Of a stretch of 53,649 bases of DNA, positions 6,961-29,564 are shown piece by piece. The translations under genes were made by a program, and so were the position numbers. This DNA comes from a virus. The stretch covers positions 1 to 53,649 of the IMG/VR virus record IMGVR_UViG_3300038678_000209; one strand, given 5' to 3'. The notes under the pieces were generated by a model. That model made no database searches. It saw only the letters and a program-made list of their open reading frames with translations, and was not told where the DNA came from. The first letter of the stretch is position 1. Each line of letters begins with the position of its first letter.

Positions 6961-8499
6961 CTACGTTCCGTCAAAACCTGTGATTTCTGCGATATTGTGC
7001 AGAAGCAGGAAGTTCGGAGTCCGTGGCATCATCACACTCTTGCGCTCGGCCGGAGCCTGGAGCAAGTTGCTGAACTTACCGTTGTGGTCATAACGCGTGA
7101 AGATGCTATCAAACGCGCTCGCCCCACTGGACGCAAGGAACTGCATTTCATCACCAACCCGCTGGTCCATCCTTGTACCTGGAATCGGAGGCGGAACAAA
7201 CCGGTCGATGTCAAATACTCCGGCCTGGAATCGCCCCTTCTCCATGTACGTGCTGGTATGAATGTCCATCTTCCGGCCACCATACCGGTAGTTGAACACA
7301 TCCCAACCGGCCTCAACCTCGACTGCGCGCCCGTTCCGCTCGTACCGGAACCGACCTGGGTAGGTTCCCTTATTGTCGGTTGGGCCTTCAGTTCCACCCC
7401 GAACGAGGCTGTCGATGTTGTCGATAAACCCAAGCAGCACACCGTTCGTCGTGACGGCCTTCGGCAGATCGCTGTCGCGAAAGCTCTCTTTGAAGTACCC
7501 GACGTACCGGTTCAAGAGGCTCTCCGTGAGCGGAGCCGCCGATATGTCGCGCTTCATCGACTTGTACTCACCGTGGTCTCCAACGGTAATGCCGAAGAAG
7601 TCCGTAATGTCCGTTCCGTCGGCTACCCACGCCGCCATCGTGCCGGGCGTAAACCCGACGCTGTCCTTAAGCACGATGATGTCAAGGTCGCCGCCAGCAC
7701 CAGCATACGTGATCCCACCACCAAGCACAGTCGTAGTCTGCAACTCACCGCCGTCAATTCGCCGCAGCCGCACAACCTGCGCTTCGTAGTCAATGTTGTC
7801 CACATACACTAGGAAGTTGCTGTTGCGCTTCACGGTCCCAGCAGCGTTGAACAAATCAATCAGTTGACCCTTCTCCAGCCGGTGAATCCGACCAGTCGCA
7901 AGGGACGAACTCGCACCGGAAATGTCCACGTTGATCGCACCAGTGTCACCCGATACGTCCGTTACGGTCGCGCTCGTGTTTCCGATCGCGGCCAGCGCTA
8001 CAGTTGACGGCGCAGTCGAATAGAACGCACCAAGTTCTTGCTGCAACGTGAGCTTGGCCAGTCCCTTCACATAGAACGGCGTTACCGCCCCAATGCTGGA
8101 GTTCAGCCGATCAGTCTGGAGGATGTCACGTGGAATGAACAAGTTCAGCTTGTGCTTGACCAATTGTACCTGGGACGTGAGAAACGTCGGCGCACTTACC
8201 TCGTCGAAGCCCGGCCAAGTTTCTGGCGTACCAAACGCGGAAAAACTCCACGTCGGATCGTTGACCATATCGCTGCCCAGTGGGGACCCAAAACTTCCAC
8301 CGCCGGCCAGACCCAGACCCCAGACCTTCTTCACCTTGTAGTCGCGCCCAATGCCTTCATTGCGCACGACGTTTGACCACGTGCGCCGCGCCATAGCGTA
8401 CACCGGGTCCTTAATTACTCCTCTTTCGTAAATTGAAGGTAGAAGTTCCTCGCGAAGGGTCTGACTCAAAGTCGACTCGAGAATCGTGGTAGTAGCCAC
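6961..8499 (-). CDS. Major capsid protein
   Basis: The protein has 512 residues and starts at a GTG. It is assigned from position (after portal and scaffold), size and overall pattern: an N-terminal helical arm (LESTLSQTLREELLPSIYERG), VQLVKHKLNLFIPRDILQTD typical of the long helix/E-loop region of podovirus capsids, and a C-terminal half rich in aromatic beta strands (VEAGWDVFNYRYGG, FQAGVFDIDRF). It should form the HK97-fold shell assembled on the scaffold encoded upstream. A promoter inside the scaffold gene (9274-9302) and a hairpin after the capsid gene would favour high capsid expression. Mass spectrometry of virions would settle it. Confidence 0.75.
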   Translation of the reverse strand: MATTTILESTLSQTLREELLPSIYERGVIKDPVYAMARRTWSNVVRNEGIGRDYKVKKVWGLGLAGGGSFGSPLGSDMVNDPTWSFSAFGTPETWPGFDEVSAPTFLTSQVQLVKHKLNLFIPRDILQTDRLNSSIGAVTPFYVKGLAKLTLQQELGAFYSTAPSTVALAAIGNTSATVTDVSGDTGAINVDISGASSSLATGRIHRLEKGQLIDLFNAAGTVKRNSNFLVYVDNIDYEAQVVRLRRIDGGELQTTTVLGGGITYAGAGGDLDIIVLKDSVGFTPGTMAAWVADGTDITDFFGITVGDHGEYKSMKRDISAAPLTESLLNRYVGYFKESFRDSDLPKAVTTNGVLLGFIDNIDSLVRGGTEGPTDNKGTYPGRFRYERNGRAVEVEAGWDVFNYRYGGRKMDIHTSTYMEKGRFQAGVFDIDRFVPPPIPGTRMDQRVGDEMQFLASSGASAFDSIFTRYDHNGKFSNLLQAPAERKSVMMPRTPNFLLLHNIAEITGFDGT

Positions 8500-8529: not shown

Positions 8530-8919
8530 TCATTCACTTTCTGCACTAGTGTAGTGCAATGCTCTATGACAATTAGCGCACAACAAAGTGCACTTCTCAA
8601 TTTCTTCCAGCAACCGTTTCCGGTTTCGGCTCCATCCTTGGCCGACAGAAAAACTTTTTGTTTCTCTGTCCTTATGGTGAAAGTCTAGGCACACCGGGCG
8701 TGATTCTCCACACACGCTGCACCCCACAGAAGACTTCAACTCGTCGGCCCACTCCCGATATTCCTTGTAATACGCCTTCGCCCAAACAGCACGCGACTTG
8801 GCGTACTTCTTTCGCCGCGCGGCAAATTGCGTAACCGAACGGCGATAGTAGGCGCGTCGCTTGGCGCGCTTCTCCTCTGGCGTCAACTTTGTCCACTTGC
8901 TTCCATTCCGCTTCGCCAC
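8530..8919 (-). CDS. HNH endonuclease
   Basis: A 129-residue protein with a basic N-terminal half (EKRAKRRAYYRRS and KKYAKSRAVW) and a C-terminal HNH core. The core has a CSVCGE zinc knuckle, CLDFHHKD holding the first catalytic histidine, and CTLLCANCHRALH with the second knuckle and last histidine. All key residues are present, so it is probably active. The start is a GTG with GGGGGAT upstream. It sits between scaffold and capsid genes, a typical insertion point for free-standing homing nucleases in phage late operons. It appears to have entered without disrupting either neighbour. Confidence 0.9.
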   Translation of the reverse strand: MAKRNGSKWTKLTPEEKRAKRRAYYRRSVTQFAARRKKYAKSRAVWAKAYYKEYREWADELKSSVGCSVCGESRPVCLDFHHKDRETKSFSVGQGWSRNRKRLLEEIEKCTLLCANCHRALHYTSAESE

Positions 8920-8922
8920 TGC

Positions 8923-9828
8923 TTATCCCCCCGGCAGTTGACTGCTCTCTCTTTCTATGAGCGCCTGATTGTACTTCATACGCTCCATCAAGTACTCATC
9001 GTGTGACTGCTCGTCCGCAAACGCAGGCACCCGCTCCGGCGCCTTCAACTCCTGATTCATTTGAAAGTCCGCCTGTGACCCCGGTCCCATTCCTGGTTGC
9101 GCGGGCCGCTCAAAAAACGGCGCTAGCCTCGCCTTCTCCGCGGCCACCGCTTGCTTAGCCGCTTGACCCCAGTTGTAGTCAAACCGATCACCGCGCTCGT
9201 CCACAAACCGTTGCAGCCGGTCCCGAATGATCGACTTCACCGAATCCTGCGCTTTCGGACTCGCCTGCTTCATATTATAGGACAACTCTTCGTCCAAGTC
9301 AAGCGCCTGCCCAATTGCCTGCTCAACCATGTGGCTATGGACAGCCCCAATCGCCTTTTGAGACCCCACATCCAACCGCGCGTACCCAATCGGCTCGTCA
9401 CCATCATCGGTACGCGCCCGCTTACCAGTCGACGTAGACGGCTCGTCAAGGTCCACGTCACCATCATCGTCGTCGTCTTTCAACTCCCCCTCAATTGCAG
9501 CGATAAGCGTGTCCAGCTCCCCCGCCGGCAAGTTCTTCACCTGCTCAAACAGCGCCGACGCGTCCACAGTAGCCTCCGCTGGTGCCGCCGCCACACTTGT
9601 CGATTGGACATTGGTGGGGACCGGTTGTGGCTCGCGATCCCCACCTGCAGCATCTGGCTGGGTGGACTTGTCGGGCGGTGCGGTGGCCTCCGTAGGAACG
9701 TCCACGTCAGCCGCGCGCCCAGTTGTCTGCGTGACCGCCGCGGGGGTCAAGTCGGGCGCGTTGCCCGGCGCTTGGTCCACGTTCGTGGTTCCGTCTGTTT
9801 GCGTTTGCGTATTGACTTCCGTGGGCAT
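8923..9828 (-). CDS. Scaffolding protein
   Basis: A 301-residue protein of scaffold character. The N-terminal ~90 residues are low-complexity (P, T, A, Q, D), a DDDDDGDVDLDE acidic stretch follows around residue 120, and the rest is largely helical and charged with no cysteine. The C-terminal region (RMKYNQALIERESSQLPGG) is the expected capsid-binding tail. It lies between portal and capsid genes, the standard scaffold position. A promoter (9274-9302) and one copy of the 20-bp repeat (9608-9627) lie inside the gene. The repeat encodes QPVPT in the flexible N-terminal part. Confidence 0.75.
   Translation of the reverse strand: MPTEVNTQTQTDGTTNVDQAPGNAPDLTPAAVTQTTGRAADVDVPTEATAPPDKSTQPDAAGGDREPQPVPTNVQSTSVAAAPAEATVDASALFEQVKNLPAGELDTLIAAIEGELKDDDDDGDVDLDEPSTSTGKRARTDDGDEPIGYARLDVGSQKAIGAVHSHMVEQAIGQALDLDEELSYNMKQASPKAQDSVKSIIRDRLQRFVDERGDRFDYNWGQAAKQAVAAEKARLAPFFERPAQPGMGPGSQADFQMNQELKAPERVPAFADEQSHDEYLMERMKYNQALIERESSQLPGG
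9274..9302 (-). promoter_or_regulatory. Internal sigma70-type promoter
   Basis: Read leftward, TTGACT at 9302-9297, a 17-base spacer and TATAAT at 9279-9274 give a near-consensus promoter inside the scaffold gene. It would start transcripts about 9267 and serve the end of the scaffold gene, the HNH gene and the major capsid gene. The match is as good as that of promoters found between genes, so it is unlikely to be chance alone. Confidence 0.65.
9608..9627 (+). repeat. Dispersed 20-bp repeat, copy 2
   Basis: Matches CCATTGGTGGGGACCGGTTG on the plus strand with one mismatch at the first base. It lies inside the leftward scaffold gene and is translated as QPVPTN in a flexible region. It pairs with copy 3 (12897-12916) in the same orientation, the two bracketing the band-7 and portal genes. 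Confidence 0.85.
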
Positions 9829-9831
9829 CTG

Positions 9832-10521
9832 CTAATTCCCTCCCTCAATTTTGATCTTTTCCACATTCACAATCGGCTGGACATTTTGTGACAGCGCAAG
9901 AAGCGCTGTGTCCACCGGCACATTCAACTCGGTTGCAGCGAATTTTGCCGCGCTAATTATACCTGCACATGACGCCTTCATAGCACATGACATTCGGCTA
10001 TGCGGGTCCTCGTGTTCAATCCTTTGGAACCTCGCGCAACGGATGCTCACGCCGCACCCTTCCAAGTCATCTACTACCGTACCGCGCAGCTCCTCTTCCA
10101 TAGCTCGGCTTTGCTCAGCGATAGTCTGGAATTCGTTGTCAGATAGTATCCGCCGCACGCACGCTTCCACAACTGCCAGTATGTGGACGGTAGGTTCATC
10201 GGATGACGCAAGGAACACTCCCAAGTCTACAATGTCGTAGATGATAATGGCGTCTGCGCTTAGCGCTACGCCGTCCCACGTCAGTCCAGTAACCTGTTCA
10301 GTTGACGCGACATTCCTAAGCGCGTGTTCCTTGACAATTGTTTGGCAAGATGTACAAATCCTCCACCCAGTTTCTAGTCCCGGTCCAGGATTCCCGAGTG
10401 TATACCTAACGGCGACTTCTCCTGGTCTTACGACGGCCCACTTCAACGGGAATAGCCAAACCACTGGGGTAACCAGCGCGTTCATCACCAATTCTAGGCA
10501 CCTTGCGAGGAACTCAAGCAT
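9832..10521 (-). CDS. SPFH/band-7 domain membrane-associated protein
   Basis: A 229-residue protein. A hydrophobic N-terminus (residues 1-30, LELVMNALVTPVVWLFPL) is followed by a stomatin/prohibitin-like (SPFH, band 7) domain: VVRPGEVAVRYTLGNPGPGLETGW near residues 30-50, then VASTEQVTGLTWDGVALSADAIIIYDIVD and the helical VEACVRRILSDNEFQTIAEQSRAMEEELRGTVVDDLEGCGV. Cellular SPFH proteins form oligomeric rings on membranes and regulate proteases or microdomains. Here the gene is coupled to the portal gene by a TGATG overlap and precedes the scaffold. Its role is unknown; possibilities are a membrane platform for assembly, protection against host proteases, or a virion component for entry. Confidence 0.8.
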   Translation of the reverse strand: MLEFLARCLELVMNALVTPVVWLFPLKWAVVRPGEVAVRYTLGNPGPGLETGWRICTSCQTIVKEHALRNVASTEQVTGLTWDGVALSADAIIIYDIVDLGVFLASSDEPTVHILAVVEACVRRILSDNEFQTIAEQSRAMEEELRGTVVDDLEGCGVSIRCARFQRIEHEDPHSRMSCAMKASCAGIISAAKFAATELNVPVDTALLALSQNVQPIVNVEKIKIEGGN

Positions 10522-12695
10522 CAAACGAACCCTTCCACGGGTACTTGCACACCGCCTGGCGGCTGGGTCGGAGGCGCTATGGCGCTGGCAGCAAGTGACT
10601 GGCCTTGTTGCTGTTGCTCAGCCGCAAGCCGCTGCTCAATCTCCGGCAACGCTTCCGCAGCCGCATCCTCTGGCAGCGGCAACCCCGCGGGATAGTCGCC
10701 CTTCATCCGTTCAAGGGCTTCTTTCCAAAGGACGAATTCCTGTTGCACTTCTTCGGTTGCCAGGCCGAACTCGATCTTGGACATGAACCGCTTCAACGCT
10801 CGCAGGTGTATGCTCGGGTCCTGCACGTGCTCGTCAAACTCAACCGGCCCCGGTTCCTTACCGTCGTTGAACAGCAAGATAATTTGCCAGATAGCCTTGC
10901 GCCATGTTTCGTACAAGTCTTTCGGTCCGCCCGGCACGTCCAGGTTTTCCTCGAACACTGCAAGCCAGTAGTTAATGTAGGACTCTTCCGGCGTCGCGCC
11001 AAGCAGCCCCGCCGCGTGATGCTCTGCCAATTCGCGCTTGCGAACGTCGGGGTCAGCGGGCACGCGGTCTTTCACATCCGTCTTGACTTCCCACGGTTGT
11101 GGTATCGGATTCTGCGCTAGTTCAAGCGATCCGGTTTCCGGGTTGAACACAACACCGGCCAGGTTCTCGTCGATGGTTGCTAGCTTAATCGTCTCGCCGC
11201 CCTGCAAGTTTTCGCGCGCCGACTGTAGAATGCGAGAGTAGATCGCAGCCATGCTGTCCGCCAAGTTCGCAGACGGCAGTCCCAATCCGATATTGCCCGT
11301 GTTGAACAGAAACCCGTGTCCTGCGGCGCCAATGTCCCGCCCGGCGGCTTGCCCCTCGTAGAACGGCCCCTGCCCAGCAAGGCTGTCGGATACGTCTTTC
11401 AAAAACACGCCAAAGTTTACGGGCAACAGCCCGATGTTCTTTGGTTGTATACTGATCGGCTGTGCGTTCGACGCTAGCGGATCAATTGTGTACTTATCCA
11501 TGCGCGGGCGGGGGCCGGGCTGGTTGTGCTTCTTCACATCGATGTTCATGCCGCTACTGACATACGTAGTGCCGAACATGTCCATTTCGCGGATGTTCCG
11601 CGCGACAGACGCGATGACCTTCTCGAACTGGTCATTGGCCGGAATCAGTGGTGCCACAAACCCACGTGAGAAGGCTGCTCCAGTATCCGTGTATCGCACT
11701 GCCTGTAACGGGCACACGATTCTGCGGCCTACAGCTTCGTAGTCGTCTTGGTAAATGATCTTGCGGCCGATCTTCAAGATGTACCGCGCCGTATAAGTCG
11801 CGTCATCCATGTACGGGTAGACTTCTTCCATCGGCACGTAGTAGCGGCCTGCCACATCAATGTCACGGTGCTCGTCCGCCTTGCCACTGCCAAGCGGCAC
11901 TCCCACAAATGCGCGCCCGCCGCCAATCTTTGGATCAGCCGGCGTCAGTACGTTGCCGTCTTGCAAGTACCGACCGTGTGTACCTCCCGTTGTTTCAGTA
12001 AGTAGCGAGTGGCCCGGCGGTTGGTTTCCCCACCCCACACGCACTCCAAGCAGATCAGATTCAACGTCGTACAGCGTATCCAAGTTGATGTCCCACCGGG
12101 TCTGTACGTAACTGCGGACCCACTCGTAGGGCATCCACCGCTTCCGCGCAATGCCCTGTATCGACTCGCAGCCCTCCGCAAACGCTGGCAAGAATCGAAG
12201 TTGCCTCGGCGGCACAACTTCGATGTGGTCTGGGTGTTGGGGGTCCGGCATTTCGTGGTGCGCAATGCCAACGATCCCGTACTTTACGAACGGCACTATG
12301 ATCGCGGTCTTAAGCCGATCAAGGTTAAGACCCGCCACACGTGCGTTCAATACCGCATTCGCGATCGCAGCGTTGCGCATGTCACCAAGCGATTCACCGC
12401 GCCGTCCTACTTTCGGCGATATGTCTGCGCGTAGCCACCGCCCCACTTCTACGAGGTAGCGGCGGACGATGTCTTCATAACGAAAGAGCACGTCCCCGCG
12501 CAAATGCTCAAAGCCGACCGCTACACGGCCAGCATACCGGTCGAGTGTCGTGAATTTTCTAGCGCCGCGGAGGTAGCCGTCGATGACTCTCCAGCCGGAC
12601 AAGTTGAGTCCCATTTCAGACTCGGCGGCAGTGAGTTCCATATCTAGGGATTCGGCCAGATGATCTTCGTCAGACGGTAGGTGATACCTTGCCAT
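10521..12695 (-). CDS. Portal protein
   Basis: A 724-residue protein with the size, order and composition of podovirus portals. The N-terminal half is mixed helix and strand with a long DNA-binding-style clip (residues about 150-330). A central NDQFEKVIASVARNIREMDMFG helix follows. The C-terminal part ends in an acidic/Q-rich barrel-like tail (EALPEIEQRLAAEQQQQGQS). The ATG at 12695 overlaps the upstream stop (TGATG). It forms the 12-mer ring at the packaging vertex, binding the terminase during filling and the adaptor afterwards. Confidence 0.85.
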   Translation of the reverse strand: MARYHLPSDEDHLAESLDMELTAAESEMGLNLSGWRVIDGYLRGARKFTTLDRYAGRVAVGFEHLRGDVLFRYEDIVRRYLVEVGRWLRADISPKVGRRGESLGDMRNAAIANAVLNARVAGLNLDRLKTAIIVPFVKYGIVGIAHHEMPDPQHPDHIEVVPPRQLRFLPAFAEGCESIQGIARKRWMPYEWVRSYVQTRWDINLDTLYDVESDLLGVRVGWGNQPPGHSLLTETTGGTHGRYLQDGNVLTPADPKIGGGRAFVGVPLGSGKADEHRDIDVAGRYYVPMEEVYPYMDDATYTARYILKIGRKIIYQDDYEAVGRRIVCPLQAVRYTDTGAAFSRGFVAPLIPANDQFEKVIASVARNIREMDMFGTTYVSSGMNIDVKKHNQPGPRPRMDKYTIDPLASNAQPISIQPKNIGLLPVNFGVFLKDVSDSLAGQGPFYEGQAAGRDIGAAGHGFLFNTGNIGLGLPSANLADSMAAIYSRILQSARENLQGGETIKLATIDENLAGVVFNPETGSLELAQNPIPQPWEVKTDVKDRVPADPDVRKRELAEHHAAGLLGATPEESYINYWLAVFEENLDVPGGPKDLYETWRKAIWQIILLFNDGKEPGPVEFDEHVQDPSIHLRALKRFMSKIEFGLATEEVQQEFVLWKEALERMKGDYPAGLPLPEDAAAEALPEIEQRLAAEQQQQGQSLAASAIAPPTQPPGGVQVPVEGFV

Positions 12696-13054
12696 CAAAT
12701 GTTCTCGTAAGAAGACTCGCCAGGCTCAGTCCAAGTCGTATCTGGTTGCTCCTCGGACGCACGCAACTCCCGCTGCCGCGCATACGTCCCAAACGCCTGG
12801 GCCAAATCGGAATTGCCCATTTGTACGAGCAAGAGTTCTTGAAGCCGATCAACGACAGGTAGCCAGTCCTGTACGGCGCTGCCAGCATGAGGTTGGCCAT
12901 TGGTGGGGACCGGTTGATTTACACGCACTTGCAACTCAGACACCTCGCGGTGCAGGCGTCCAACATCCGCGTGTAAGGATTGAAGAACCTGCGTGAGCTG
13001 GTCTACTGCCACGCGCTTCTGCTTGTTGGGTTTGTCACGATTCCAGAATGCCAT
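12695..13054 (-). CDS. Coiled-coil protein upstream of portal
   Basis: A 119-residue protein with a basic N-terminus (FWNRDKPNKQKRVAV), then a heptad-rich coiled coil (LTQVLQSLHADVGRLHREVSELQVRV) and an acidic tail. It starts at an ATG with a good GGGGGAGG ribosome binding site and follows a promoter at 13099-13127, making it the first gene of the portal operon. The 20-bp repeat inside it encodes NQPVPTNGQ immediately after the coiled coil. The function is unknown; a small head-assembly or packaging partner is possible. Confidence 0.7.
   Translation of the reverse strand: MAFWNRDKPNKQKRVAVDQLTQVLQSLHADVGRLHREVSELQVRVNQPVPTNGQPHAGSAVQDWLPVVDRLQELLLVQMGNSDLAQAFGTYARQRELRASEEQPDTTWTEPGESSYENI
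12897..12916 (+). repeat. Dispersed 20-bp repeat, copy 3
   Basis: A perfect copy on the plus strand, inside the leftward coiled-coil gene, where it encodes QPVPTNG. It shares flanking bases with copy 1 (GG before and ATT after), extending the identity to about 25 bases. Confidence 0.9.
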
Positions 13055-13151: not shown

Positions 13152-15062
13152 TCAGGCATAACCGATTATATCCCAGTCCACGCCGGTCGTATCGTCGCGC
13201 TGGGCCTGCTCCTCCTGCGCGCGGTAGTGGGCTTCCGCGACTTCGTCGGTCAGGCGCCCGGTTGCGATCGCGTGCTCAAAGTTGTCGAAGCCAAGATCGT
13301 CGTGGAGCTTGCCGTCTTTGAGCTGCTGGACCGCGTCAAGCGGGTCGGACGCGACTGAGATCGCAATGGGTGCCGCGCCCTTAGCGATGCCCTGGGTCAT
13401 GGCTACCGTGTCCAGAATGTCGTCGTGCTCCAGCAGGCCCATGTCGCTCGTGAACAGCTTGGTTTGATCCCACAGCGCCTTGTACGCAACTTCGTCCATG
13501 CGGTCTACAGGGTACTTGATGCGGAACTGCTCAAAGCGCCATGCGATACCTTTGATTTTCTCTGCTTTGGAAAACGTAGTGGGGAACTTGATGGGGATAA
13601 TTGCGGGGACCATTGAAGCGGCGCCGTCGGACACGCGCGCTTGTAGCTGCGGGAGCATGTCTTGGTAGAACCGCTCGTAGGTTTCCAGTTGTAGACCATA
13701 CGCCTCGATGCCAATGATATGAACTTGCCACTTAATCGCCATGTCAGTAAGGATTTTGACGAGTGTAGAGCGCTCTACTTTGCCCATCCAAGCGTCCAGG
13801 GAGAACAGCGTGTTGGGGTGGGCCTCAGTAGATTCCAAGCCAAATGCCTGGCACGCGGAGAAATCGGACATGTCGCTGATCGTGGGTGCGTAGTCGGCGG
13901 TGAGTATACGGTACATGCCCTGAACTGCGGGGCCAAAGGGGCGCACGAGCTTGCGCGGCACAGGGACAATGCGCAAGATTTCGGGGTCGTCCGCGTCTCG
14001 CACTTGGTCTAAGCGTGCGACTTGGTGAGTGACCAGCTTGGTTGCGGCTGACTGCAACGGGGACGTTGTATAGACTTGGTCGCGATCCTCCAGGTGGTAG
14101 GTCGTGAGTTCTGGGTGAATCTTGAGAAGCGCCTCTTCGTCTGTGGCCGGCGCGTTGAGACACTGCGCAGAAAATGCGGCCAGGCCAAGCTGCTTCTTTT
14201 CGTTCTCGATCCACTCTTCGTTCATAAACACGTCCGTAGACATATCGTGAACGGTCATCAGCGTGCGGTGGAAGAAGTCCGTAATCTTTGAGTCCTTGGA
14301 CTTGTACAGATTGTAGATGTACATCGCGCGCGAGTAGAGCGTGCCAACAATGCGCATGGGGATGGTTTTGCCCGGCGAACGGGCCATAGGGAGAAGGCCG
14401 TTGAAGAAGAAATCGTGGAAGCCGTGGCGCACGTCACCGGGATTGAGCACCTGCTCTTTGGACTTTTCCACGTCATCCACAACGATCAAGCCGGAGGGGC
14501 GTGTTCCTATGCTGGCGCCCATGAAGGGCTTGGCTTCGATCTTGCAGCGGCTCGTAGTCTCCAAGACGGACCCGCGGTTCCAAGTGCCGCTACCGCGCTT
14601 GGGTTTTTGTTTGCCGAAGTCGTCAATGATCCGAGAGTTGCTTTCCAATTGCGTGGCTAGACGGCCCAAGCGGGACGTGCAAAACTCGCGGGTGGCAAAG
14701 AACGCGGTGCATTCCCAGAACCGGCGCGTGACGAGGTTCCGCAGAATGTCTTCAAGCAGTTTGGTAGTTTTGCAGCCGCCACGCGGTGCGATGTGGATTA
14801 AACGTTTGTGCGTGTACCAGTCGCGTACCCACTCGGCGTGGGCCGGTGGAGACTCCACAAACGTGTCGGAGTACCAACCAGATTCCCAAGGGCGTAAATA
14901 CGTGTCGCAGAAGAATCGATCCGCAGCTACTTCAAGATCGGGTGGGCCATTGAGTGACGCGGCATTGACACGCGCCAGGCGTTTTCCGTCAAACGTTAGG
15001 TCTTCGTAGTCAGGAGGAAGCGGCCAGCGCTCGTTGCCTTCCTTGGGAAAAACAACAGGCAT
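13152..15062 (-). CDS. terL: Terminase large subunit
   Basis: A 636-residue packaging ATPase-nuclease. Residues 90-100 contain a Walker A variant (IAPRGGCKTT) followed by a helix. Around residue 195 GLIVVDDVEKS supplies Walker B with the catalytic acidic residue. The C-terminal RNase H-like nuclease has ILTADYAPTISDMSDFSA (first aspartate), HIIGIEAYG (glutamate) and LEHDDILDTVAM (last aspartate). All are expected in an active enzyme. It docks on the portal and drives DNA into the prohead, cutting concatemers. The start overlaps the stop of the preceding 63-residue gene (TAATG). Confidence 0.95.
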   Translation of the reverse strand: MPVVFPKEGNERWPLPPDYEDLTFDGKRLARVNAASLNGPPDLEVAADRFFCDTYLRPWESGWYSDTFVESPPAHAEWVRDWYTHKRLIHIAPRGGCKTTKLLEDILRNLVTRRFWECTAFFATREFCTSRLGRLATQLESNSRIIDDFGKQKPKRGSGTWNRGSVLETTSRCKIEAKPFMGASIGTRPSGLIVVDDVEKSKEQVLNPGDVRHGFHDFFFNGLLPMARSPGKTIPMRIVGTLYSRAMYIYNLYKSKDSKITDFFHRTLMTVHDMSTDVFMNEEWIENEKKQLGLAAFSAQCLNAPATDEEALLKIHPELTTYHLEDRDQVYTTSPLQSAATKLVTHQVARLDQVRDADDPEILRIVPVPRKLVRPFGPAVQGMYRILTADYAPTISDMSDFSACQAFGLESTEAHPNTLFSLDAWMGKVERSTLVKILTDMAIKWQVHIIGIEAYGLQLETYERFYQDMLPQLQARVSDGAASMVPAIIPIKFPTTFSKAEKIKGIAWRFEQFRIKYPVDRMDEVAYKALWDQTKLFTSDMGLLEHDDILDTVAMTQGIAKGAAPIAISVASDPLDAVQQLKDGKLHDDLGFDNFEHAIATGRLTDEVAEAHYRAQEEQAQRDDTTGVDWDIIGYA

Positions 15063-17679: not shown

Positions 17680-17961
17680 TTAGAACCTCAACTGTTGCGC
17701 GAAGTCAAATCCAGCGGCAGCCGCCGACGTTTTCGCGGCCAACTGCTGCTGCTTGAACCGGTTGAGCGTGTCCATTATGGCGGTCATACGCCGGCGCTTT
17801 GGGCGAGACGCAGCCTCTTCCTTCTTGCGCTGCTTCCGGCGCTCCACGTCGGAAAGGATGCCCGTGCCCAAACCAACTGCGCCACCAATTGCACCCGCAG
17901 GACCGAGCAGCGCTCCGGCCGCGCCCGCTCCAGGTCCGCCATAGCCTACACCTGCTGGCAT
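17680..17961 (-). CDS. Glycine/alanine-rich small protein
   Basis: A 93-residue protein. Residues 1-40 are almost entirely G, A and hydrophobic residues (GAAGALLGPAGAIGGAVGLGTG), a glycine-zipper pattern that may insert into membranes. A basic helical region follows (ERRKQRKKEEAASRPKRRR). AGGAG lies a suitable distance upstream of the ATG. It could be an ejected virion protein that meets the cell membrane, or a lysis accessory. Confidence 0.65.
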   Translation of the reverse strand: MPAGVGYGGPGAGAAGALLGPAGAIGGAVGLGTGILSDVERRKQRKKEEAASRPKRRRMTAIMDTLNRFKQQQLAAKTSAAAAGFDFAQQLRF

Positions 17962-19388: not shown

Positions 19389-20186
19389 TCACTCCACAGG
19401 GGTGCTGCAAAGAGACTCACTGGATGTATGCCCCCAGAGAGGGTCACCAGGCGTAATGCTTGCCATCCGAGCGCAGGCACCACCGGCATACAGCTTGGAC
19501 AGCTCGATGCCCAGCCAGCGGCGGTTCAGCTTCTTGGCGACGGCGGGGGTGGTGCCGCTGCCTACGAAGGGGTCAAGCACGAGATCGCCCTCGTTGGAAC
19601 AGGCTCGAATAATGCGGCCGAGGACCTGCTCAGGCATCTGGCAACCGTGAAAGCCTTGGCGTTCGTTGTGGGTGCCGCAGACTCGCGGGAACTCCCACGT
19701 GTCGTCGGGGATGCGGCCACGAGGATCAGCTCGTTTGTCGCCCGCGAGCTGGCGGGCAGACGGCACGCGGATTGCGTCCGCGTTGAACGTGAAGTGCTTG
19801 GGGTCCTTGACAAAGTAGAGCAAGTGCGTGTGGCTGCGCGTAAACTTGCGCTTGCAATTGACGCCAAACGTGTAGTGCCAAATGACCCAATTTCGGCAAT
19901 GCAGGCCAAGATTACTCGTGCAGATGACCTTCAACTCAGCCGCGTAGTCATCGCCGATGGCAAGCCAAAAGGTGCCGTTGGGCTTGAGCATACGTACAAC
20001 TGCGCTGATCCACTCACGTGACCAACGGAGGTAGTCGATGTGAGGTTGCTTGTCGTTGTAGTCGTCGTACTCGTAGCCGATGTTGAACGGCGGGTCGGCG
20101 AAGACGAGGTCGACTGAGCCCGCGTCGAGCTTGGCGAGTTCCTGAATGCAATCGCCGTGGATGATTTGATCTAAGTCAGTTGTCAT
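19389..20186 (-). CDS. DNA methyltransferase (N6-adenine or N4-cytosine), beta class
   Basis: A 265-residue enzyme. The start at 20186 is chosen because AGGAGG sits seven bases upstream and the protein then begins [13 protein letters not shown], typical of the family. The catalytic motif DPPFN is at residues 31-35 and the SAM-binding FVGSGTT at 207-213, that is, in the beta-class order of amino-methyltransferases. IHGDC and [10 protein letters not shown] are well conserved. No partner restriction enzyme is seen, so it is an orphan methylase, probably protecting phage DNA from host restriction or marking it for packaging or regulation. It is preceded by a tiny membrane-protein gene and a promoter. 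Confidence 0.93.
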
Positions 20187-20220
20187 GTTAGTTCCTCCTG
20201 GTTGCTGGATAGTAATACCG

Positions 20221-20343
20221 TCAAATCGTGGGCAAGTCAAGCACGAAGTTGGGGGTGGAGACGAGGTGGATCGCGTACACAAACGCCCCGACTAGGAGCG
20301 TCGCGATTGCGGCCACGTACAGAATGGTCAGAGCAGAGCGCAT
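20221..20343 (-). CDS. Tiny membrane protein
   Basis: A 40-residue protein beginning [19 protein letters not shown], with one predicted membrane helix and a short outer tail ([12 protein letters not shown]). A GGAGG lies nine bases upstream of the ATG. It is the first gene after the promoter at 20368-20396, with the methyltransferase following. Function unknown. Confidence 0.65.
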
Positions 20344-26649: not shown

Positions 26650-26886
26650 ATGAAGGTTGAAAATGCAGAAACCGCAAGTAAAGGACAGTTGTTGAGTTCG
26701 TTTGGGCTGGGGGATTGCGTCCGCCTTGTTGGTCCGGAAAACGGTTTCGGTCACCCGTTTATCGGTCACGTATACATTGTCAGCAGTTTTAACGGGCATT
26801 CGGTGGCGGTCAATCTTTTCGATGGGTGCCACCGAGAAAGCGGTGGGTTCGTGCTCGAACCGAACGCGAAAGTCGTCATCGAATGA
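26650..26886 (+). CDS. Small hypothetical protein before DNA polymerase
   Basis: A 78-residue, beta-rich protein. GLGDCVRLVGPENGFGHPFIG followed by YIVSSFNGHSVAVNLFDG suggests a small barrel, like phage proteins of the KOW/SH3 type, but the match is only general. AATGGAG precedes the ATG. Its stop overlaps the polymerase start (ATGA), so it is coupled to replication. Confidence 0.7.
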   Translation: MKVENAETASKGQLLSSFGLGDCVRLVGPENGFGHPFIGHVYIVSSFNGHSVAVNLFDGCHRESGGFVLEPNAKVVIE

Positions 26887-29564
26887 ACTTCGCTCCAGGT
26901 AGTCACGTCTTGGAGGAGCCGCTTGCGGAGGGCTACTCGCGCCGCGTGGTGCCGACGTTTCCGCTGCACGTCAACGGACGGCAAACTGCCCTGCTAGTTC
27001 TTGGGGAGGCGCCTGGCCGGCAAGAAGACGAGACTGGCGAGCCGTTTGTTGGGTGGTCGGGCCAATTGCTCCGTACTGCGTACATCGACTACTGGAAGCT
27101 GCAGGACCACGCGGATGTGTTCTTGTCCAATGCGGTGCGGTCTCGCCCGCCTGGCAATCGCACGCCTAAGCCGAAAGAGATTAAGGCGCACGCGGACATG
27201 CTCGTCCACGACGTGACCGAATTGCAGTCGGCGTACTCAGAGGTGTTCGTGTTGTGCGCTGGTGCGGTGGCGTGCCAAGCGCTGGGCATGGCCAAGACGC
27301 TCACCGCAGCATTCAAGAGCCAAGGCGGCACTCTGCCATTCGCGTCGGGGCACGTGCGCGCGTATGCCACGTTTCACCCAGCGTCCCTTGCAGACCGTAG
27401 CAAAAACAAACGGCGCCGGGGACCACGCCGTGCCCGCACCGACAAAGGACCAGCGCTGGAGTCGCACTTGTCACTCCTGAAGCGGGCGCTATCAGGCCAG
27501 GACCCACCCGTCAGGTCTGTGCATTGTGATGGTGGCCAGTACTGGCTTACTGCACCAGGCTCTCACTACTCAGCACCTAACATTCCGAAGGTGCTATGCT
27601 GTGACATTGAAACGTGGGGCTGTTTAGCCGGACACGAGCAATCGCAGTTTCATCCCCAGAAGATTCTACATTGGGATGACGTGCCACAGTCGGAAGTGCT
27701 AGTAAGTGCTGCTGTATCTTGGGAAGGCAGCGCAGGATTCTACGACTTATCGGACCCTCATCACCGGCAGAATCTTGTAAACATGTTCTATTGGGCTCAA
27801 GTAGACGGTTGTACGCTGCTGTTTCATAACCTTGCGTTTGATGTGCCGTTTCTGCGTTGGTTTTTGCCGGCGTGTGCTCGGTACTTAGAGCCGCCGACCA
27901 AGTTTGCCGACTTGATGATTGAATCGCACATGGTGGATGATTTGCGGCCCGAGCGTTCACTCAAAGCGTTGTCGCCGCTCATGCTTGGCCAGCGCGGACT
28001 GTACACTGATGAGCAGCGCGCGCTTGAATACATAGGACCAGACGACCCTGAGCTGGCGCGCTACAATGTGGCTGATGTAGAGCGCACTCTGGCGTGTTAC
28101 CATCGATGCCGCGAAGCGTTCCCGCGCATTTACGGTACAGGTACGAACAAAGGCTCGCCATACGCAGACGATTGGTCCTCCAAGGTGTTGCATCTTGTTA
28201 CGCACATGACCGAAGTCGGCATCCCGATTGACGAGTCTGGCCTGCGCGCTTTGGACGTGCGGCTGCGTGTCCGCTTGGAGCGCATCGAACGGCTAGCACA
28301 GAGCGTCTTGGGCTTTGTACTTTCGGGGAAGGGCTCCGACATTTCCAAGCGCTCGGCGGTATCGGATGCCGCAGCGCTGTGCCCAGACGATGTCGCTGCG
28401 CAAGTTGCGTTGACCAAAACCGGCAAGTTTCCCTACGATGAAGTTACACGCGCGTTGCTCATGCCTGAAATCCAAGGACGCACTGGCAATTCACCGCGGC
28501 AGGGGGCATGGCGCAAGCTGCACGTGTTGGGGCTGCACCAAGGCGTTGCTAAGCTCATCAACACGTACACGGCGCCGATGCTCAGGGGCCGCGTCAAGAA
28601 GAAAGCGACTAAGGAAACCAAGACAAAGCCAGCGCGCGAAGCAGTTATCAACCACGCACCGCGTGTCATTCACGGGCGCATCTACCCGACGTGGTACCCG
28701 GTGCCCCGCGAGTTTGGGGACACGGGCCAGTCGGGTGGTACGCGGCAGATACGGTTTGCAGCCAAGGACCCGTCCGTTCCGACGTTTCCGCCCTGCATTA
28801 AAGACCTGCTGCAAATTGACATCTGGGCCGACTACTCAGGTATCGAACTGCGCACGGCTGCGCTGATGTCCGGTGACCCGGTGATGATGGCCGAGCTGTC
28901 CGGCGACGACGGCGACTTGCATACCCGCACGGCGCGCGTTATCCTTGGGAACAAGTTTGTAGATGACAGGATCAAGATGTACGGCCCGAAGGCGTGGAAA
29001 GGTGGCAAACACCGCTATGCTGGTAAGCGCACCAATTTTCTCATGCTCTACCTGGGAGGTGCAGACAAGCTGCAAGCTACACTCTTAGACGCGCTTGGGG
29101 AGAACTACCCGGTGTCCCGGTGCCAGCAGATCATTACCGACTTTTGGGCCGTGTACCTTGGACTGCGTGCTTTTCTTGACGGTGTGATTGACTTCGTTCG
29201 TCGCAAGGGCTATTATGAATTACCGCTGACGGGTCACTCGCGCTTGTTCGATCGGCACAACCCGCCGATCAACGAGTGTGCAAACTTCCCGTTTCAAGCG
29301 ACGGCGGCTGCCATCACAATTTGTGCTCAGTACGAGCTGTGGCAACTGGCGCGGTCAGAAGGTGTGGGGATGAACTGTGGCTGTAACATCTATGATGCTG
29401 TCGGAATCGAGCTGCACGCCCGCGAGCGCCGGCTGCACGGAACGCAGCGTGCTCGTGCTCTCATCGATCGCGCGCTCCCCAAGCCGTCGTACTACAGAGA
29501 CTTGTGTTCCCACTTGGGACGAACCTTACCCCTAGCCTACGAAGTAAAGGAACCAAAACGATGA
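26883..29564 (+). CDS. Family A DNA polymerase fused to uracil-DNA-glycosylase-like domain
   Basis: An 893-residue two-part enzyme. Residues 1-205 form a family-4 uracil-DNA-glycosylase-like domain: GEAPG at 41-45, EPFVGWSGQLL, RPPGNR at 89-93 and HPA at 165-167. The cysteine normally before RPPGNR, which holds the iron-sulfur cluster, is serine here. Residues 235-410 are a 3'-5' exonuclease with DIE (241-243), HNLAFD (315-320) and YNVAD (394-398). Residues 440-893 are the polymerase: motif A DYSGIELR (D650), motif B R711-K715-F719-Y723, and motif C YDA (D838), where the family usually has HDE. SPO1-like phages are known to have a UDG-like domain on a related polymerase. It replicates the phage genome; the N-terminal domain may sense uracil or aid processivity. 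Confidence 0.92.
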   Translation: MNFAPGSHVLEEPLAEGYSRRVVPTFPLHVNGRQTALLVLGEAPGRQEDETGEPFVGWSGQLLRTAYIDYWKLQDHADVFLSNAVRSRPPGNRTPKPKEIKAHADMLVHDVTELQSAYSEVFVLCAGAVACQALGMAKTLTAAFKSQGGTLPFASGHVRAYATFHPASLADRSKNKRRRGPRRARTDKGPALESHLSLLKRALSGQDPPVRSVHCDGGQYWLTAPGSHYSAPNIPKVLCCDIETWGCLAGHEQSQFHPQKILHWDDVPQSEVLVSAAVSWEGSAGFYDLSDPHHRQNLVNMFYWAQVDGCTLLFHNLAFDVPFLRWFLPACARYLEPPTKFADLMIESHMVDDLRPERSLKALSPLMLGQRGLYTDEQRALEYIGPDDPELARYNVADVERTLACYHRCREAFPRIYGTGTNKGSPYADDWSSKVLHLVTHMTEVGIPIDESGLRALDVRLRVRLERIERLAQSVLGFVLSGKGSDISKRSAVSDAAALCPDDVAAQVALTKTGKFPYDEVTRALLMPEIQGRTGNSPRQGAWRKLHVLGLHQGVAKLINTYTAPMLRGRVKKKATKETKTKPAREAVINHAPRVIHGRIYPTWYPVPREFGDTGQSGGTRQIRFAAKDPSVPTFPPCIKDLLQIDIWADYSGIELRTAALMSGDPVMMAELSGDDGDLHTRTARVILGNKFVDDRIKMYGPKAWKGGKHRYAGKRTNFLMLYLGGADKLQATLLDALGENYPVSRCQQIITDFWAVYLGLRAFLDGVIDFVRRKGYYELPLTGHSRLFDRHNPPINECANFPFQATAAAITICAQYELWQLARSEGVGMNCGCNIYDAVGIELHARERRLHGTQRARALIDRALPKPSYYRDLCSHLGRTLPLAYEVKEPKR

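Follow-up and report, generated by a model that had tools for sequence, protein, structure and literature searches.

A short SPFH/Band 7 gene overlapping the portal-position gene of a phage that probably infects planctomycetes

What is an SPFH/Band 7 protein doing among the likely head genes of a phage? The window analysed here is the whole 53,649-nucleotide IMG/VR virus record IMGVR_UViG_3300038678_000209. At 9832-10521, on the reverse strand, it carries an ATG-initiated gene for a 229-residue protein, which the initial annotation had read as a Band-7 protein coupled to the portal gene and placed ahead of the scaffold. The family assignment holds. In the Pfam search the protein matches PF01145 Band_7 at 42 bits (E 1.4e-10), the curated cut-off being 23.6 bits, with residues 30-169 (10015-10434) aligned to positions 2-146 of the 176 in the profile, and its counterpart in the one related phage scores 50.7 bits; both proteins are members of the SPFH/Band 7 superfamily by profile score. 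A six-frame scan of the record gave no other Band_7 match. On this profile evidence, the SPFH/Band 7 domain encoded at 9832-10521 is genuine. An N-terminal membrane anchor, as found in the superfamily, is predicted ahead of the domain: mean hydropathy peaks at 1.74 over residues 8-26, within a hydrophobic segment at residues 8-28 (10438-10500) that includes P19 and P25, and a low-confidence AlphaFold2 model places a helix at residues 2-28. The protein also has eight cysteines.

The earlier picture of a membrane ring should be treated with care, since the protein lacks the long coiled coil from which HflK/C, stomatin and flotillin build their cages. Cage-forming SPFH proteins, QmcA among them, have this long coiled coil in their C-terminal part; here only about 60 residues follow the domain (residues 170-229, 9835-10014), and when the phage protein is aligned with SPFH relatives of full length it has no counterpart of the coiled-coil block that comes next. 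Stomatin, QmcA and HflK-HflC resemble the window protein in having the SPFH domain after an N-terminal membrane segment, which in stomatin is likewise short and contains proline, but they are cellular proteins of about 290-420 residues with long coiled coils. An AlphaFold2 model built from a two-sequence alignment was unusable (pLDDT 33.6), and adding two SPFH relatives from viral contigs to the alignment gave a model that is still of low confidence (pLDDT 45.7). SPFH proteins account for 35 of the 36 best PDB matches of this seeded model (stomatin, HflK/C, QmcA, flotillin and prohibitin), and its core of 78-79 residues lies 2.5-3.0 A from stomatin SPFH domains. The matches agree with the Pfam result, but at low confidence and with some circularity, since the model was built from an alignment that included SPFH sequences. 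The protein reached no curated NCBIfam cut-off and was assigned to no SPFH subfamily there: the HflK equivalog scored 13.1-15.4 bits against a cut-off of 159.4, and no HflC match was listed. A comparison of group profiles settled on no single subfamily, the PHROGs, including the phage SPFH profile phrog_200, gave no match at E 1, and a search of a defence library gave none.

The neighbourhood of the gene is compact. The stop codon of the upstream 725-residue gene (10521-12698, reverse strand) overlaps the SPFH start codon in the sequence TGATG (10519-10523), and the SPFH stop codon lies 3 nt ahead of the next start (TAG-CAG-ATG, with GAGGGAGGG upstream), which belongs to a 301-residue gene (8923-9828, reverse strand). 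No promoter or terminator belonging to the SPFH gene itself stands out. The large terminase subunit, TerL (636 residues, 13152-15062, reverse strand), is the sole head or packaging gene confirmed by homology (phrog_38, E 6.9e-25). The 725-residue gene occupies the portal position, as judged by its place after TerL, its size and its Q-rich C terminus, the acidic 301-residue product occupies the scaffold position, and a 512-residue gene (6961-8499, reverse strand), 93% identical in the related phage, occupies that of the major capsid protein (MCP). The portal, scaffold and capsid identities are likely from order, size and composition. The labels 'portal' and 'scaffold' used in the initial annotation are therefore kept here as positions: the first two proteins have no match in Pfam, PHROGs or PDB, the 512-residue protein has no family match, and none of the three shows profile similarity to the protein in the same position of the phages LUZ24 and NV1. 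On these profiles LUZ24 and NV1 were rejected as relatives of the head genes. The negatives are weak, because even TerL shows no profile similarity to the LUZ24 and NV1 TerL, which indicates that two-sequence profiles have little reach. The LUZ24 gene between portal and scaffold encodes a short protein that is not SPFH-like. By sequence reading rather than from a Pfam scan, a likely HNH endonuclease gene (8530-8919, reverse strand) separates the scaffold-position gene from the capsid-position gene. In the related phage those two genes are only 65 nt apart with no HNH gene between them, and similar sequences occur elsewhere, so this gene appears to be mobile.

The related phage, IMGVR_UViG_3300043256_000267 (55.6 kb, IMG/VR), has the same arrangement. 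Its SPFH protein is 91% identical, with residues 1-41 and the last 29 (201-229) unchanged; the order TerL, 119-residue gene, 725-residue gene, SPFH, 301-residue gene and 512-residue gene is common to both phages, and the TGATG overlap and the TAG-CAG-ATG junction are identical. The overlap behind the proposed coupling to the upstream gene is thus present in both phages. Between the two phages the SPFH gene has a dN/dS of 0.114, compared with 0.036 for the 725-residue gene, 0.061 for the 512-residue gene and 0.193 for the 301-residue gene, which indicates that the SPFH gene is maintained under purifying selection. Conservation of the pairing of the 725-residue and SPFH genes is seen at short range only, in one relative whose SPFH protein is 91% identical. 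Scans of IMG/VR with SPFH, portal-position, MCP-position and TerL queries and with a TerL motif gave this one related contig; tblastn against INPHARED with the same four proteins, a TerL scan of genome contigs, and a search of 392 planctomycete genomes with TerL and portal-position profiles gave nothing.

Phages are already known to carry SPFH genes. What is new here is a truncated version that overlaps the gene in the portal position, of which we found no report in the open-licence papers searched. SPFH genes have been described in the T4-like phages 44RR, Aeh1 and RB43 (PMC1524935), in Vi01-like phages (PMC3220722, PMC10892097) and in Bruynoghevirus relatives (PMC8540360), as well as in a P4-like satellite (PMC4936722), and gp49 of mycobacteriophage LeBron, described as 'Band-7-like', is among cytotoxic genes (PMC13148394). 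In those phages whose context was checked, apart from the exception given below, the proteins are longer (NV1 276 residues, Hallingskeid 284, X1 454, Brizo 459, Bambus 462) and are encoded away from the head genes, in early or accessory regions, so that the placement within the head genes, overlapping the portal-position gene, is indeed unusual, as had been remarked. The 'lipoproteins' of phrog_200, such as gp11 of Pseudomonas phage NV1, are likewise phage-encoded SPFH proteins, but the gp11 gene belongs to the early region and is separated from the portal gene by about 34 kb, and the 229-residue window protein has no phrog_200 match. A linked pair of portal-position and Band-7 genes was found in the single relative, whereas the other phages checked carry their SPFH genes outside head operons, the exception in context being the unrelated podovirus MW202733 (Podoviridae sp. 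ctgrD200, T7-like), which has a mini-SPFH gene of about 190 codons directly after TerL. Like the window protein, it is a podovirus protein with an SPFH domain behind a short hydrophobic segment ending in L(W/F)PLK, and a packaging gene adjoins it; the two nevertheless have no detectable pairwise similarity (E 0.36), and the MW202733 protein is nearer to QmcA (33 bits) and is encoded about 18 kb from its portal gene. In INPHARED the MW202733 terminase has more than 2,500 relatives, whereas tblastn with the mini-SPFH protein found only a few distant SPFH genes of cellular type elsewhere, which suggests a separate acquisition. The two cases beside packaging genes are suggestive but do not make a pattern. 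The 'prohibitin-like protein' annotated in MW202733.1 (19911-20489) does not take up the whole of its open frame, which starts immediately behind the terminase stop.

The host is probably a planctomycete, as judged from sequence relationships. The main clue is an N4/N6 DNA methylase (19389-20282, reverse strand) for which 80 relatives in bacterial genomes were reported, at up to 64% identity; 78 are from named planctomycetes (Pirellulales, Phycisphaerae and others) and two are named only 'bacterium'. A profile of the phage SPFH protein found no close relative in 21 planctomycete genomes, so none of the host genes sampled in these genomes is a recent source of the phage gene.

As to function, we tentatively favour a membrane-anchored late factor, a tether or platform that may help the portal-position protein to assemble, or head building to start, at the inner membrane. 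The SPFH protein would be produced late and in concert with the portal-position protein; it would sit on the cytoplasmic side of the inner membrane, as its eight cysteines and short proline-containing segment suggest; its domain would oligomerise into a patch or open ring; and this would tether or seat the portal-position protein, helping its assembly at the membrane. Head building is the usual role of genes that lie between those for portal and scaffold. This reading is favoured for that reason and because the start of the gene is tied to the 725-residue gene, and there are precedents for both the task and the means. In T4 the portal initiator requires gp40 and is bound to the membrane (PMC9958956), so that the proposed shared task, portal initiation at the inner membrane, would resemble that of gp40 and YidC on the gp20 portal, by analogy only; the means would resemble those of a B. 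subtilis SPFH protein that links the phage-shock protein to the membrane (PMC8581546). The SPFH domain, the conserved overlap and gene order, the dN/dS of 0.114, the lack of an evident promoter or terminator of its own and the mini-SPFH gene beside the MW202733 terminase support the tether; it is weakened by the positional identity of the portal, by the reliance on one relative at 91% identity, by low GC3 and by the distance of about 18 kb between the MW202733 gene and its portal gene. A stronger version, in which an SPFH protein has turned into a dedicated head-assembly factor, a membrane platform co-translated with the portal where portal rings and procapsids start, is doubtful. Outside T4, little is understood of the way in which portal rings are initiated at the membrane, and the same is true of what the recurring phage SPFH proteins do; an overlap between a small SPFH gene and a gene in the portal position would join both questions and would offer a simple protein pair for testing.

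A somewhat less probable explanation is that a late-made mini-SPFH protein acts on host HflK/C-FtsH or on other SPFH assemblies by binding or capping them, and would thereby shield phage proteins or preserve the membrane until lysis. HflK/C controls FtsH (PMC12048511), a protein that has lost the coiled coil would be suited to a capping role, and Band_7 matches were found in five of the six planctomycete genomes searched, including adjoining HflC-like and HflK-like genes. The sequence itself leans weakly towards HflK and stomatin types, but its HflK scores fall far under the cut-off. Host-modulating phage genes are, moreover, usually early and do not belong to a head operon. Elsewhere in the window, a 93-residue protein (17680-17961, reverse strand) has a weak match to the holin family phrog_1350 (E 0.0024), so lysis genes may sit near 17-18 kb, away from the SPFH gene.

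Slightly less probable again is a moron-type cargo gene, for example for superinfection exclusion or envelope protection, that rides in the late operon and is unrelated to the portal. Composition favours it: GC3 of the SPFH gene is 0.55, the second lowest of 34 genes (mean 0.645, sd 0.051), its GC content is also low, and low GC3 is what a recent arrival might show. The likely HNH gene two genes away, missing from that place in the relative, likewise favours cargo, as it indicates that the region accepts insertions, and most phage SPFH genes are scattered accessory genes (PMC3220722, PMC13239085). Against this, no promoter or terminator marks the gene as a unit of its own, and the exact start overlap and the 3-nt gap at its end are both conserved in the relative. 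Were it cargo only, SPFH proteins would still be seen to be picked up repeatedly by unrelated phages. The least probable reading, that the protein is part of the virion and at entry is either injected into the host membrane or stays behind in it, draws on an SPFH lipoprotein that gave three spectra in the CsCl-purified Vi01-like phage Sajous1, but low counts may be debris, as the same report warns (PMC10892097), that protein is a differently annotated family member from an unrelated phage, and nothing in the window sequence marks a virion protein.

The 3' end of the SPFH gene raises a separate matter. A 62-nt block (9824-9885, reverse strand) spanning this end together with the ribosome-binding site and start of the next gene is identical in the relative, and is the second-longest exact match in a comparison with 20 kb of that phage. 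Only one synonymous change falls within the last 30 SPFH codons; the portal-position, MCP-position and TerL genes have about 9-11 for every 30 codons, and none of their 30-codon windows is that low. From the block, nucleotide conservation beyond the protein code reaches about 10026. RNA structure at the conserved end was not significant (z -0.95 to +1.02). The block is possibly the ribosome-binding region or promoter of the scaffold-position gene, or a cis element; alternatively, it may be a recombined tract. On the forward strand, a 912-residue frame at 26826-29564, whose start codon is uncertain, holds a uracil-DNA glycosylase domain together with a family A DNA polymerase.
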